From Novosphingobium sp. EMRT-2 (GTDB lineage Bacteria; Pseudomonadota; Alphaproteobacteria; Sphingomonadales; Sphingomonadaceae): a stretch of DNA of 64,000 bases. This document shows, one piece after another, positions 46,549 to 64,000 of this stretch (position 1 is the stretch's first letter; each line of letters opens with the position of its first letter). The position numbers were made by a program, and so were the translations under genes. The stretch covers positions 1,421,501 through 1,485,500 of the forward strand of contig NZ_CP039695.1 in assembly GCF_005145025.1 (NCBI RefSeq). Reading direction: 5' to 3'. The notes beneath the pieces are model-generated. The model ran no database searches and was not told where the DNA came from. It saw only the letters and a list, made by a program, of their open reading frames with translations.

Positions 46549-46677
46549 ACCGCGCCCGCCGGCGTTCGACGGGGAGCGGTGAAAAGTGCAAAACAGGGCT
46601 GGACAAGCCAGCCGCGCTTCGCCATAGCCGCGCTTCCAATCGCCAGACGCCCTCTCGGGGAAACGTCCGCAGCGATG

Positions 46678-46753
46678 CCCGGGTAGCTCAGTTGGTAGAG
46701 CACGTGACTGAAAATCACGGTGTCGGCGGTTCGACTCCGTCCCCGGGCACCAC
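46678..46753 (+). tRNA. tRNA-Phe (GAA)
   Basis: 76 nt with encoded CCA. Acceptor GCCCGGG pairs with CCCGGGC; the D-loop is AGCTCAGTTGGTAGAGC, the anticodon loop CTGAAAA gives anticodon GAA, and the T-arm holds GGTTCGACTCC. The prophage begins directly after the 3' end, which makes this gene the likely integration target. Confidence 0.97.
46729..46753 (+). other. Putative attL core in the tRNA-Phe 3' end
   Basis: Tyrosine integrases commonly use the T-arm and acceptor end of a tRNA gene. The integrase-containing element starts within 25 bp of this end and its int gene reads toward the tRNA. A second copy of this 3' sequence (attR) is not seen in the window, so the boundary is inferred. Confidence 0.45.
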
Positions 46754-46775: not shown

Positions 46776-47297
46776 TCATCCACTTTTTCGGTTGGACATT
46801 TTTTCAGAGGCATCGGTTGGACAAATTCCGACTTTGAGAAGGCGCTTTATCTCATCGGAAAGCTCCGCCTTTCTCGAGAACCATTCGCCATTTATGCGTA
46901 GATGAGCGAATTGCTCGTGGTACGCCGCTTCTGCGCTTTCATCCCCGAATGTCCATGCAAGAAGTCTCAACCTATGGGGCGATCCCGTCTGCAGTTTCTT
47001 CATGCGCGCAGGAAGATTGATGGTGATGCCAATTTTCACGGCACCCTTCTGATTTCCGATAAAGTAGATCACACTCCTGCCTTTCGGGACGAGAGTATGG
47101 TCGGTCAGATTTGATCTGGGTTTCCGCCTGTCTTGGGGGCGATAGTCAGGATCCTGACAGTCAGAATATGACCGCAGGAATTGTTCTGTACCTGGTTCGC
47201 CTTGGACATACCGGCTTGGAAGCCCCTTACGACGGAATCGGTATCGCGCCTTGCCATGGCGATCTTTCGTCGCTCTGACATTTGGTGGAAGTTCCAT
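46776..47297 (-). CDS. Integrase-N-domain/GIY-YIG fusion protein
   Basis: 173 residues from ATG 47297 (TGATG with the integrase stop; GTG 47300 also possible). Residues 1-47 copy the N-terminus of the adjacent integrase: both read ELPPNV..., DRHGK.RYRFRRKG, YV.G.PG, about 60 percent identical by eye. After a short linker comes a GIY-YIG-superfamily domain of the Mug113/T5orf172 type: VIYFIGNQKGAVKIGIT, LPARMKKLQTGSPH, then AAYHEQFAHLRINGEWF, where the catalytic glutamate is expected. The gene is AT-richer than the integrase. The integrase-like part should target the same arm-type DNA sites; the GIY-YIG part could cleave there (inference). I know of no described function for this pairing. Confidence 0.75.
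   Translation of the reverse strand: MELPPNVRATKDRHGKARYRFRRKGLPSRYVQGEPGTEQFLRSYSDCQDPDYRPQDRRKPRSNLTDHTLVPKGRSVIYFIGNQKGAVKIGITINLPARMKKLQTGSPHRLRLLAWTFGDESAEAAYHEQFAHLRINGEWFSRKAELSDEIKRLLKVGICPTDASEKMSNRKSG
46789..46823. repeat. Direct repeat TCGGTTGGACA, candidate integrase arm sites
   Basis: An 11-bp perfect direct repeat at 46789-46799 and 46813-46823, 24 bp apart, within 70 bp of the tRNA end and inside the last codons of the fusion gene. A third GGTTGGACA lies at 47326-47334 in the end of the integrase gene. The position next to the att core fits arm-type integrase sites. Confidence 0.45.
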
Positions 47298-48361
47298 CAC
47301 TGTTCCTTATCGAACGTGGACAGCAGGTTGGACATTGCGGCGTCTGCCAGCTTGCTTCGGTTCGCCCTGGCGCGGTACTTCACGAACGTCGCCGCCTTCT
47401 TGTGACCGGTGATCGCCATGCCCTCGGCATCGGTCCCTCCGCTCTCGGCGATCCGGCGCGACACCGCTTTGCGCAGGCCGTGCATTGAGCAGTTCTCCAG
47501 CCCGGCATCATCGCACCACTTGCGCATCCGATTTCCGAGCCCGGCGACGCTGAAAGGCTTGCCGTGCTGCGTCGTGACCAGATGCCGGATCGGCGCTGCC
47601 GGCAGGGCTTCCAGCGCCGCTTTCGCCATCGGTAGCATTTCGACCGAAGCCTCTTCGTTGTCCTTGGCGTGGGCGATGATGATCCGGCCGTTCTGAATAT
47701 CGTCTCGGGTCAGGGTGGCGACGTTGCAACGCCGTGCCGCGGTGTTGAGGGCAAGCTCCAACGTCAGGCGCGCCATGGTGCCCAGCTCGTGCTTGGCGCG
47801 ATAGCGCTCGATCTCGTCTTCCGTCCATGTATGGAAGCCGGGGCCTTCCTTATAGACGTCGGTGAGCCGCGCCGGGTTTTCCGTGCGCCATCCTAGCCGA
47901 ATGGCATGGTCCATCACGCCCGCAAGCACCTTGCGCAATTCATTCGCGGCGGCAGGCGTGGCAGACATGCCGGCAAGGATCTTGTCGAGCCAGATGACGG
48001 TGATCTTGGCCACCGGCCGGTTCCCGTATCGACGCCCCTTCTGGTCCTTGCGATCAGCAAACCGCTCAAGGATGCGGGCCTGCTTATACATGGTCCTCTC
48101 GCCCTTCTTCTTCCACTTCGTCGTGGCCTTGAAGCGGGCGATCAGGTCATCAAGGCTTTGCGGCTCGATCCTCGCCGCCGACACCGGTCCTGTCTCTGCC
48201 AATGGGCCGGCCTTGATGATGTTCGCATAGCCTTCGTGGAATGCGATTGATCCGGGATCTCCGGGAACATAGGCGCTTTTCCAGCCCTTGCGGCGGAACC
48301 GGTAGCGTATCTTGCCGTGGCGATCGGGGACGGCGCAGACGTTGGGCGGAAGTTCAGACAT
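47297..48361 (-). CDS. int: Tyrosine-type site-specific integrase
   Basis: 354 residues from ATG 48361 (an in-frame ATG lies 2 codons earlier). N-terminal arm-binding segment (SELPPNVCAVPDRHGKIRYR), SAM-like core domain, and catalytic domain with Arg in NTAARRCNVATL, HxxR in MHGLRKAVSRR, ITGHKK and the Tyr nucleophile in TFVKYRA. It inserts and excises the element at tRNA-Phe. It overlaps the small gene upstream and is coupled to the GIY-YIG fusion downstream. Regulation is probably through the leftward promoter near 51900. Confidence 0.93.
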   Translation of the reverse strand: MSELPPNVCAVPDRHGKIRYRFRRKGWKSAYVPGDPGSIAFHEGYANIIKAGPLAETGPVSAARIEPQSLDDLIARFKATTKWKKKGERTMYKQARILERFADRKDQKGRRYGNRPVAKITVIWLDKILAGMSATPAAANELRKVLAGVMDHAIRLGWRTENPARLTDVYKEGPGFHTWTEDEIERYRAKHELGTMARLTLELALNTAARRCNVATLTRDDIQNGRIIIAHAKDNEEASVEMLPMAKAALEALPAAPIRHLVTTQHGKPFSVAGLGNRMRKWCDDAGLENCSMHGLRKAVSRRIAESGGTDAEGMAITGHKKAATFVKYRARANRSKLADAAMSNLLSTFDKEQ

Positions 48362-49603: not shown

Positions 49604-50605
49604 GATACAGGGACCAGCTTGCCCGACTGGCAGACGTACCAGACATCGGCATCAATGCCGTCCTGCCCGACAATCCCAGCGGCTACAGAGATGATCTTGT
49701 AGGAAGGGTAAGCCTCACGCTCGACAGCAAAGATTGCGCATCCTTCCGCGCCCATAACTCGTCCGACATAGCCGGTCGCACTGGCCGCGCCCCAAGTGCC
49801 GGTCGCACTGGCCGCGCCCTGATCGCCGGTCGCACTGGCCGCGCCCCAAGTGCCGGTCGCACTGGCCGCGCCCCAAGTGCCGGTCGCACTGGCCGCGCCC
49901 CGAGTGCCGGTCGCACTGGCCGCGCCCCGAGTGCCGGTCGCACTGGCCGCGCCCCGAGTGCCGGTCGCACTGGCCGCGCCCCGAGTGCCGGTCGCACTGG
50001 CCGCGCCCCGAGTGCCGGTCGCACTGGCCGCGCCCCAAGTGCCGGTCGCACTGGCCGCGCCCTGATCGCCGGTCGCACTGGCCGCGCCCCAAGTGCCGGT
50101 CGCACTGGCCGCGCCCCAAGTGCCGGTCGCACTGGCCGCCCCGAGTGCCGGTCGCACTGGCCGCGCCCCGAGTGCCGGTCGCACTGGCCGCGCCCCAAGT
50201 GCCGGTCGCACTGGCCGCGCCCTGATCAATCGTCACATGGGCGTCATCGGACTTGATCGCCCGTTCCCACACCCAATCCCATGCGCGCTTCACCAGATCG
50301 CCGATGCCGATCTCGATATTGACGGTCAGGATAGTGCTGGCAGCCTTGTCGTCTTCGCGGCGGCAAATGTCGCCGGACTGCGTGACCGTGAAATACCTGG
50401 ACCGTCCGGGAGCGTAATATCCGAACACCGAAAGCGGATGAATGTCTTCGGGGCAGGCATGAAAGCCATTGCCGCAGCACTCCGCCTTGCCTTCGACGGT
50501 ATAGGTCTTGCCCGGTTCGAACTGGAAACCGCGACAGGTCAGATCGGTGTTGAAGCCCTTGATCGACTGGATCGCCGTCTCGGGCTGCTCTTTTTTCTTG
50601 GACAT
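49600..50605 (-). pseudogene. DUF7666-like phage protein with 9-residue repeats, frameshifted in the repeats
   Basis: The N-terminal half (from ATG 50605) has the phage domain KGFNTDLTCRGFQFEPGKTY, NGFHACPEDIHPLSVFGYY, with C-terminal [10 protein letters not shown] leading into the repeats. The C-terminal half ([32 protein letters not shown]) is also intact, but in a different frame. They are joined by 17 repeats of 27 bp encoding (T/D)(W/R/Q)GAASATG; the unit at 50122-50146 is only 25 bp. This 2-bp loss breaks the frame after the third repeat. Similar phage proteins have G.QSAA.T repeats expected to form a beta-solenoid. It may be phase-variable, decayed, or a sequencing error. Confidence 0.72.
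49771..50227 (-). repeat. Tandem array of 17 x 27-bp units (one 25 bp)
   Basis: Each unit reads GCCGGTCGCACTGGCCGCGC on the + strand followed by a 7-nt variable end: CCCAAGT, CCCGAGT or CCTGATC. These encode TW, TR or DQ plus GAASATG on the minus strand. The order from left is W-DQ-W-W-R-R-R-R-R-W-DQ-W-W-R*-R-W-DQ; the starred unit (50122) lacks 2 bp. The W-DQ-W-W-R block occurs twice, suggesting block duplication. Confidence 0.95.
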
Positions 50606-62897: not shown

Positions 62898-63254
62898 CTA
62901 AACCAAGTCCTCAACACCAACCTGCAGCGCCGCCGCCAGCTTGCACACAGTCTCTACCGAACCTTTCTTCCGGCCGGCTTCGATGTCAGCAATCTGAACG
63001 CGGTTCACGCCCGACGCGCTGGACAGGGTGGCTTGTGTCATGCCGCGAAACTCACGCCAGACGCGCAAGGGGTTTTCCCCGCTAACAAGCCGCTTCGCAA
63101 CATCGGCTGGCACCAGCTCATCGCGGCCGGCGGCGATGTCGGTCATGGCGCGATCATAGGTGCGCAGATCGGCGAGTTCATCGACCGCAGCCTTGAGGTT
63201 CCGGTACTCGTCCAGCGGGATCGTAATCATCTCGCCCATGTTCATCTCCATCAT
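62898..63254 (-). CDS. XRE-family antitoxin
   Basis: 118 residues: an N-terminal ITIPLDEYRNLKAAVDELAD segment and a C-terminal HTH (VWREFRGMTQATLSSASGVN, RVQIADIEAGRKKGSVETV). It is coupled to the RelE-like gene upstream (ATGA overlap), the toxin-first order of HigBA-type modules. It should neutralise the toxin and repress the promoter. Confidence 0.85.
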   Translation of the reverse strand: MMEMNMGEMITIPLDEYRNLKAAVDELADLRTYDRAMTDIAAGRDELVPADVAKRLVSGENPLRVWREFRGMTQATLSSASGVNRVQIADIEAGRKKGSVETVCKLAAALQVGVEDLV

Positions 63255-63499
63255 TCGTAGATGCCGCCGCGCGGCCCAATTTCCAGAACGGCCAACACCA
63301 CGCCATCATCCATGATGACGCGCCAGTCGCCGACCCGCAGCCTGATCCCTTCGCGACCCTTGAGCGCCTTGACGTTGTTCGCGAGCGATACCGGATCAGC
63401 CGCATATTGCTCGACCTTGCTGATGATCCGAGCAGCATCATTCGCGGGCATCTTGCGAAGGGTCTTGATCGCGGCGCGGGTATAGCTGATCGGCTTCAT
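63251..63499 (-). CDS. RelE/ParE-superfamily toxin
   Basis: 82 residues from ATG 63499. TRAAIKTLRKMPANDAARII, KGREGIRLRVGDWRVIMDDG and VLAVLEIGPRGGIYE fit the RelE fold, with the usual basic and C-terminal aromatic residues. RelE toxins cleave mRNA at the ribosome. It is the first gene of the pair, preceded by two inverted repeats. Confidence 0.88.
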   Translation of the reverse strand: MKPISYTRAAIKTLRKMPANDAARIISKVEQYAADPVSLANNVKALKGREGIRLRVGDWRVIMDDGVVLAVLEIGPRGGIYE

Positions 63500-63507
63500 G
63501 CGATTTG

Positions 63508-63542
63508 TGTAGCCTAAAGCTACATTGTAGTCAATAGCTACA
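63508..63542. promoter_or_regulatory. Two tandem operators of the toxin-antitoxin pair
   Basis: TGTAGCCTAAAGCTACA (63508-63524) and TGTAGTCAATAGCTACA (63526-63542), each 17 bp with arms TGTAG and CTACA, one base apart. They cover the promoter region of the toxin gene. Confidence 0.75.
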
Positions 63543-63658
63543 TTTACAGATGTGCGTTTCGCCTTGCCACCGCTGCAACGAAAACGTATCAGTTTCATCA
63601 CCTCGGGAACTGCGCCCATAGGCCGGAAGCCCGATCCCCACAGATCAGGATTGACCCC

Positions 63659-63970
63659 GTGAGCGACATCGTGTTCCTTCGCGGCGTGAGCGAGAATCGC
63701 GACTTCGAGGCGCTTGGGCGCTACGTGGATGCCAGCGAGCGTATCGACAGGCTGTTGTCCGCGCGTCACAATCTCGGCTCCGCCATCGCGCAGATCGTCA
63801 GGCCGTTGTCGTTGCCCGCCGACAAGACCTCGATACCGTCCATCGATGTCGACGCGCTTGCCGAGCAGGTGAGCAACCTCACCGTGATCGAAAGCGAGCT
63901 GCGCGCCGCGATCGATGACGCCAACCAATACGCCGAAGCCGCCGGGAAGAAGGCCGTTCGCCGCCTGTAG
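63659..63970 (+). CDS. Hypothetical helical phage protein
   Basis: 103 residues from GTG 63659. It has YVDASERIDRLLSARHNLGS and DALAEQVSNLTVIESELRAA, mainly helical with possible coiled coil. Rightward, separate from the toxin-antitoxin pair. The 117 bp between the operators and its start show nothing else recognisable. Confidence 0.58.
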   Translation: MSDIVFLRGVSENRDFEALGRYVDASERIDRLLSARHNLGSAIAQIVRPLSLPADKTSIPSIDVDALAEQVSNLTVIESELRAAIDDANQYAEAAGKKAVRRL

Positions 63971-64000
63971 GCGACACCGCAACATCACCGACAAGCATCG

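Follow-up and report, generated by a model that had tools for sequence, protein, structure and literature searches.

Why should a gene that lies between an integrase gene and the tRNA gene used as its integration site encode a relative of that integrase's N-terminus, joined to a nuclease domain? Such a gene, P0001, is found in the 64-kb stretch of Novosphingobium sp. EMRT-2 DNA analyzed here (the window), at the attL of a ~20.6-kb element, a small prophage, where it sits between the tyrosine integrase gene int (product P0002) and tRNA-Phe (Table 1).

Table 1. Features of the int–tRNA-Phe locus, in window coordinates
Feature	Position	Strand	Remarks
tRNA-Phe (GAA), integration site	46677-46752	plus	
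attL core, last 17 bp of tRNA-Phe	46736-46752	plus	exact attR copy at window coordinate 67384-67400, beyond the window
Arm-domain nuclease gene P0001	46776-47297	minus	173 aa + stop
Presumed arm-type site GGTTGGACA	46790-46798	plus	inside P0001 gene 3′ end
Second presumed arm-type site GGTTGGACA	46815-46823	plus	25 bp further in, inside P0001 gene
GIY-YIG (T5orf172/MUG113) domain of P0001	46842-47069	minus	residues 77-152
Integrase-like arm domain of P0001	47160-47294	minus	residues 2-46; integrase alignment
Tyrosine integrase gene P0002	47297-48361	minus	354 aa + stop; PF00589 catalytic domain
Presumed relict arm-type site GGTTGGACA	47326-47334	plus	inside int 3′ end
N-terminal domain of P0002, part matched by P0001	48221-48355	minus	residues 3-47

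Architecture of P0001 and its surroundings

The initial annotation had read the first ~47 residues of P0001 as a repeat of the N-terminus of the adjacent integrase, with a Mug113/T5orf172-type GIY-YIG domain in place of the catalytic part, and both halves of this description are borne out. Residues 2–46 are identical to residues 3–47 of P0002 at 28 of 45 positions (62%; E 5e-16 in a single comparison), and the P0002 N-terminus was the only other match to P0001 in a search of the whole genome at E ≤ 1. Homology to the N-terminus of an integrase, with PF00589 as the catalytic domain of the partner P0002, characterizes this segment as a tyrosine-integrase arm-binding domain, for which an AF2 model predicts three strands and a helix. 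The C-terminal part exceeds the curated Pfam cut-offs for MUG113 (residues 87–149, 44.3 bits against 22.3) and T5orf172 (residues 77–152, 31 bits against 20), which places it in the GIY-YIG superfamily. The overlap of the two genes, also claimed at the outset, amounts to one base common to the int stop codon TGA (47299–47297) and the P0001 ATG (47297–47295); an in-frame GTG upstream of this ATG gives a 174-aa alternative.

Catalysis by GIY-YIG nucleases depends on a conserved Tyr, a (Y/K)IG motif, an Arg and a Glu. The active site that the initial annotation supposed is conserved: P0001 possesses the expected residues Y78, K88-I89-G90, R98 and E138, all invariant in an alignment of 32 chimeras (P0001 and 31 relatives, gathered by two protein searches), in which the mean column identity is 30% and the invariant positions comprise Tyr78, Lys88-Ile89-Gly90, Arg98, Glu123 and Gly137-Glu138-Trp139. 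A separate alignment comprised P0001 and 11 relatives, 12 sequences that all contain the two parts, and both alignments indicate more than chance. On the strength of the genome search, the integrase match and the alignment of 32 chimeras, we reject a chance match, a bad gene call and a mere second copy of int. In the database, the 46776–47297 gene is represented by P0003, a 98-aa version whose start is an internal Met, so that the arm domain is missing; short gene calls of this kind would conceal arm-domain chimeras from domain surveys.

The closest known domain systems are the arm-binding domains of tyrosine integrases, such as 3ju0 (HAI7) and 3rmp (P4-like); lambda Int has an arm-binding domain too. 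No Pfam arm family matched P0001 or P0002 at E ≤ 10, the best match of a chimera profile to solved structures had an E value of 0.039, and a Foldseek search was without matches at E ≤ 0.001; an integrase fold predicted from a single sequence (pLDDT 37.8) was set aside. P0001 likewise had no match to RepA_N in Pfam at E ≤ 10, nor to an excisionase family in Pfam at that threshold or in PHROGs and NCBIfam at E ≤ 1.

The element is bounded at the length given above by the recurrence of the 17-bp tRNA end at genome position 1488884 (window coordinate 67384). A second integrase gene, of P4 type (Arm-DNA-bind_3), lies outside the window (L204:9066–10319, plus strand, ~window coordinate 67565) and begins ~165 bp past attR, so that a tandem pair of elements probably occupies tRNA-Phe. 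A tape measure protein fragment (L204:5545–6825, from window coordinate 64044 on, outside the window) and an HTH regulator adjoining a RelE-like toxin (window 62898–63994) were also seen, and the lack of any capsid match among 20 proteins scanned around these positions suggests that the element may be a reduced prophage. Within the gene of a DUF7666 protein, a 27-bp unit is repeated 16.8 times with 94% matches (window 49771–50222).

Recurrence of the design between integrase and tRNA

Non-integrase reading frames with this arm domain numbered 18 in the loci fetched for comparison (numbered with the prefix L); six end at a locus edge, two are short (L168, 78 aa; L347, 89 aa) and ten have a nuclease part. 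Seven of these ten distinct nucleases are of the MUG113/T5orf172 type by profile search (own, L032, L033, L034, L060, L207 and L208). The nuclease of Phyllobacterium sp. YR531 (L055) is HNH/EndoVII-like, with matches to the PHROG endonuclease (E 1e-23), endonuclease VII (E 6.7e-13) and HNH (E 1e-9) families, and the last two, L264/L284 and L285, are classic GIY-YIG proteins by weak matches (Pfam GIY-YIG E 0.059 for L264, below the cut-off; PHROG endonuclease E 2.5e-4 and 2.8e-3, respectively). The N-terminal match thus holds in homologues, a check that the initial annotation had proposed, and at nine of the ten loci the nuclease gene comes directly after an integrase gene whose product has a homologous arm domain. 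Eight of these nine nuclease genes begin within the integrase gene, with an overlap of at least one base, and that of L060 begins ~140 nt after int. The exception, L208:5923–6492, adjoins an integrase of another family without such a domain, and is possibly aimed at a different element. GIY-YIG genes without an arm domain directly follow int in L073 (3863–4303), L075 (7758–8333) and L214 (5821–6264); in L074 a GIY-YIG gene lies upstream of int. Among 83 distinct integrases with at least 600 nt of downstream sequence, nine are followed by an arm-domain nuclease and 74 are not, a proportion that is no natural frequency because the loci came from chimera or arm-domain queries.

Evenly drawn genomes, each set including our own, yielded the full chimera in one of 397 from the family (our own genome only), two of 396 from the order (with at most eight candidates scored per genome) and one of 385 from the class. 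Searched with P0001 and P0136 as single sequences, viral_contigs yielded no relative. Matches to P0001 in tblastn searches of phages and plasmids were mainly to the nuclease domain, and at least 80% of the protein was covered in none of 112 phage records and two of 47 plasmid records.

A second integrase family provides a parallel. In genome G362 (L003), a 265-aa frame combines Pfam Arm-DNA-bind_3 (E 4.5e-21) with MUG113 (E 9.1e-8), a match to a Pfam arm family not seen for P0001 or P0002; it sits between tRNA-Met and a P4-type int, and both genes overlap by a few bases. A database listing holds six proteins with Arm-DNA-bind_3 and MUG113, two of which have NCBI names that mention the arm domain only; two carry the species names Sphingomonas montanisoli and Rhizorhabdus histidinilytica. 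The whole P4-type chimera was matched only in G362 among the matches listed for 397 family genomes, and its arm domain is not closest to that of its own int, which ranks 17th of 30. Short Arm-DNA-bind_3 frames from a longer match list (L348–L378) were considered as further chimeras but looked, by eye, like broken or cut integrases. Since hhalign detected no profile similarity between the P0001-type arm domain and Arm-DNA-bind_3, and the two profiles could not be aligned, the P4-type chimera is treated as a parallel and the design probably arose twice.

The fetched loci comprise 160 distinct integrases with a homologous N-domain; for 69 of them a tRNA gene, each time on the strand opposite to int, lies no more than 800 nt downstream. 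The gap between int and tRNA is 2–81 bp in 64 of these and 500–582 bp in the other five (own, L032, L033 and L207, with MUG113 nucleases, and L055, with the HNH-like one), and each long gap is filled by an arm-domain nuclease gene. Presence or absence at a fixed place, here in 5 and from 64 of 69 intervals, is a feature of homing endonucleases, and plus and minus alleles with a common tRNA and arm motif can be paired at tRNA-Phe (own, L032 and L033 versus L036) and at tRNA-Met (L055 versus L054).

The 9-mer GGTTGGACA occurs three times in the window, always in the span from the tRNA gene to the int 3′ end, with a fourth copy ~90 bp inside attR. We read these copies as arm sites of Int because of their place and repetition; in the whole 4.77-Mb genome the 9-mer occurs 35 times, and the reversed pattern, as a control, 53 times. 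Novosphingobium sp. 28-62-57 (L032/L205) has three GGTTGGACA sites with the same positions and 25-bp step. In nine nuclease-minus loci (L036, L037, L039, L045, L061, L062, L063, L086 and L121), AACC-ending repeats such as TGTCCAACC or TTTCCAACC start 73–77 and 49–52 bp from the tRNA gene, mostly within the int 3′ end and, in L036, after int. With the nuclease gene present, repeats start at 71 and 46 bp in our locus and at 72 and 47 bp in L032, now within the nuclease gene 3′ end, and at 73 and 58 bp in L033, so the presumed arm repeats hold their distance from the tRNA gene with or without the nuclease. One repeat copy also lies 37 bp before the int stop in our locus and L032, compared with 39 bp in the nuclease-minus L061, L062, L063 and L086; L033 lacks this copy. 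The nuclease genes of our locus, L205, L033, L034, L060, L055 and L285 themselves contain presumed arm sites. The simplest history would be that the nuclease gene entered between int and the core, displaced the old sites and now carries the working ones.

Arm domains of nucleases and their partner integrases

We asked whether the nuclease arm domain retains the specificity of the neighboring integrase. By the repeats near the tRNA gene, the 69 integrases fall into a [TC]CCAAC class (14), a GC[TG]AAC class (31), both (2) or neither (22), and the 45 with one clear class were compared. The residue two before DRHG is V, I or Q in all 14 integrases of the first class and F, Y or M in all 31 of the second; in the 22 classless integrases it is F (14), M (2), Y, V, D or E (one each) or unread (2). 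The nucleases match the class of their locus, as a non-aromatic or an aromatic residue at this position, in seven of seven classed loci: T, V and V at the [TC]CCAAC loci (own, L205 and L033) and F, F, Y and F at the GC[TG]AAC loci (L034, L055, L060 and L207), where L034 and L060 were classed from the repeats TTGGCTAACC and TTGGCTAAC, without a tRNA gene, and L207 from one site. The remaining two of the nine pairs, L284 and L285, differ in their repeats and received no class; by alignment, the residue is F in both proteins of L284, and D in the integrase and I in the nuclease of L285. Arm class and residue switch just twice on the tree of the integrases, both times together; the Fisher value of 6e-12 is therefore not independent evidence, and the association cannot be significant once relatedness is counted.

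The pairing of each nuclease arm domain with its own integrase was also compared with shuffled pairings. The true BLOSUM sum was reached in none of 200,000 shuffles and the identity sum in 5 of 200,000, and in a reduced set without two near relatives the true pairing was the best of 5,040. Ranked by score for each of the nine nucleases, the own integrase came first for three, second for four, third for one and fourth for one. Between our locus and L205, identity is 76% for the integrase arm domain, 73% for the nuclease arm domain and 53% for the nuclease part; the corresponding values between our locus and L033 are 69%, 52% and 37%. Across six MUG113 loci the nuclease part diverges together with the integrase (Mantel r 0.66, a value reached in 4 of 720 permutations), a pattern equally compatible with an established partner and with a selfish gene that moves about. 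Trees of the N-domain, whose 45 columns are too short to resolve them, have 14 label changes compared with 31 in shuffles and do not reject a single common origin of the chimeras (AU p 0.094). In a comparison of tails, nine class-A sequences were all non-aromatic and four class-B sequences all aromatic, with 19 of 32 unassigned, a result of little weight since the patterns were picked after the tails had been seen and the loci overlap those of the seven-locus comparison.

Proposed targeting of att arms and its alternatives

The initial annotation knew of no described system with this design. A literature search of titles and abstract openings and of text from PMC10448857 and PMC8263062, with most subscription papers outside its scope, likewise gave no description of a nuclease fused to the arm domain of an integrase. 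The statement nevertheless calls for qualification, since the origin-directed nuclease Odn of vibriophage ICP1 embodies the same idea with RepA_N. Odn joins T5orf172 to RepA_N and cuts the origin of the PLE satellite, its DNA-binding part is 42% identical to the RepA_N of PLE1, and its E180A variant is unable to cut (PMC8263062). P0001 resembles Odn in uniting a T5orf172 nuclease with an N-terminal DNA-binding domain akin to that of a mobile-element DNA-processing protein, and while Odn is aimed at the repeat sites of the RepA_N protein, P0001 would presumably be aimed at the arm repeats of Int (PMC8263062). Unlike P0001, however, Odn has a RepA_N-like domain and is encoded by the adversary of the satellite (PMC8263062), whereas P0001 has an integrase-type domain and its gene lies beside the integrase that it resembles, at att and near its own presumed target motif. 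By analogy P0001 may work like Odn, although we do not class it as Odn-type because RepA_N is absent.

The nuclease part belongs to a family in homing use. Of 229 T5orf172 phage homing endonucleases, 200 have CapR, DUF723 or DUF4397 zinc fingers, and they share with P0001 a common nuclease family, a modular DNA-binding part and domain shuffling; the available text makes no mention of an integrase arm domain (PMC10448857). Nor does the available text on F-CphI, an EndoVII-type homing endonuclease to which the L055 nuclease part may be likened through its endonuclease, endonuclease VII and HNH PHROG matches (PMC6083498).

The interpretation in the initial annotation is partly supported: of the three mechanisms that it offered, cutting of competing elements, competition with Int and nicking of att DNA, each is compatible with the sequence data. 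We propose, as the account we lean toward with modest confidence, that P0001 is a chimeric nuclease of homing-endonuclease type directed, in the manner of Odn, at the att arms of kin elements. Its first ~47 residues would act as an integrase arm-binding domain recognizing the arm-type repeats of the neighboring Int (TGTCCAACC class), and its GIY-YIG domain would cut DNA close to them; both binding and nearby cutting are suggested by analogy with Odn. Likely targets would be the att DNA of related elements with common arm sites and often a common tRNA, in the form of attP of entering or excised elements or attL/attR of residents, and nuclease-minus kin that share the arm motif and tRNA (L036; L054) would be natural targets for exclusion or homing. 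The outcome could be exclusion of the competitor, repair from the nuclease-bearing copy that brings the gene into the int–att interval, or both. Recurrence of the same design with other nucleases and with another integrase family also suggests an enzyme aimed at the att sites of related elements. The chimeric build, the position between int and att, the invariant active-site residues, the preserved repeat spacing and the joint variation of arm domain and arm motif speak for it too. Against this proposal stand the arm-less GIY-YIG genes after int (L073, L075 and L214), the other-family integrase of L208 and the rank of 17th of 30 in the P4-type pair, as do the two unclassed pairs, the effect of relatedness on the class association, the six nucleases for which the own integrase does not rank first, the single origin that the trees do not reject and the ambiguous co-divergence with int. 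Carriers moreover bear identical repeats themselves and would need some means of escaping their own nuclease. At classic homing sites, insertion abolishes the cleavage site. Here, insertion parts the repeats from the int 3′ end and might remove a cleavage site at a fixed distance there.

A different possibility, with a low though appreciable probability, is that P0001 serves its own element: bound to arm sites in the attP/attL of that element, it would nick or occupy them, so that, for example, relaxed attP keeps an excised element out, or competition with Int sets direction. The agreement of arm class with the own integrase at seven of seven classed loci, the overlapping starts in eight of nine pairs (L060 excepted), co-divergence with int and the presumed arm sites inside the nuclease genes of the loci named above are all as expected of such a partner, but 74 of the 83 integrases do without an arm-domain nuclease downstream, known directionality factors are, to our knowledge, without a nuclease, and the varied nuclease types in one slot would suit destruction more than a shaped nick.

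Somewhat less probable, in our view, is an ordinary free-standing homing endonuclease in the int–att interval, purely selfish and without a role in inter-element competition, whose arm domain, taken from int, aids binding near the insertion. Both T5orf172 and EndoVII-type nucleases are used for homing according to the available texts (PMC10448857; PMC6083498), and patchy presence after 9 of 83 integrases, plus and minus alleles and the arm-less GIY-YIG genes of L073, L075 and L214 are in keeping with such a gene. It accounts less readily for the co-divergence of nuclease and integrase and for a nuclease arm domain nearly as conserved as that of the integrase between own and L205 (73% versus 76%), although the difference is wider between own and L033 (52% versus 69%). 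That the arm domain became fused by chance or has decayed, and plays no part in targeting by what would be a general or inactive nuclease, is very improbable, for although the database gene call drops the domain and no Pfam arm family matches P0001, the domain is retained in 32 aligned chimeras, recurs with other nucleases, has a parallel in a second arm family and tracks the arm motif of its locus.

To return to a nuclease directed at the att arms of kin, P0001 could exemplify an undescribed and repeatedly evolved class, a generalization that we hold tentatively and that falls a little short of an even chance: arm domains of at least two families, joined to several homing-type nucleases, would be placed between int and att, often with arm sites in the gene 3′ end, and would cut the att sites of kin while the displaced arrangement shields the carrier. 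If this is true, integrases, known as tools of genome entry, would also be the source of the part that aims weapons or homing devices in contests over attachment sites. The natural pairs of one DNA-binding domain in an integrase and a nuclease, together with readable arm motifs, make arm-site specificity testable from sequence, and our analysis gives reason to re-examine small proteins whose annotation reads as a broken integrase or "integrase arm-type DNA-binding domain-containing protein".
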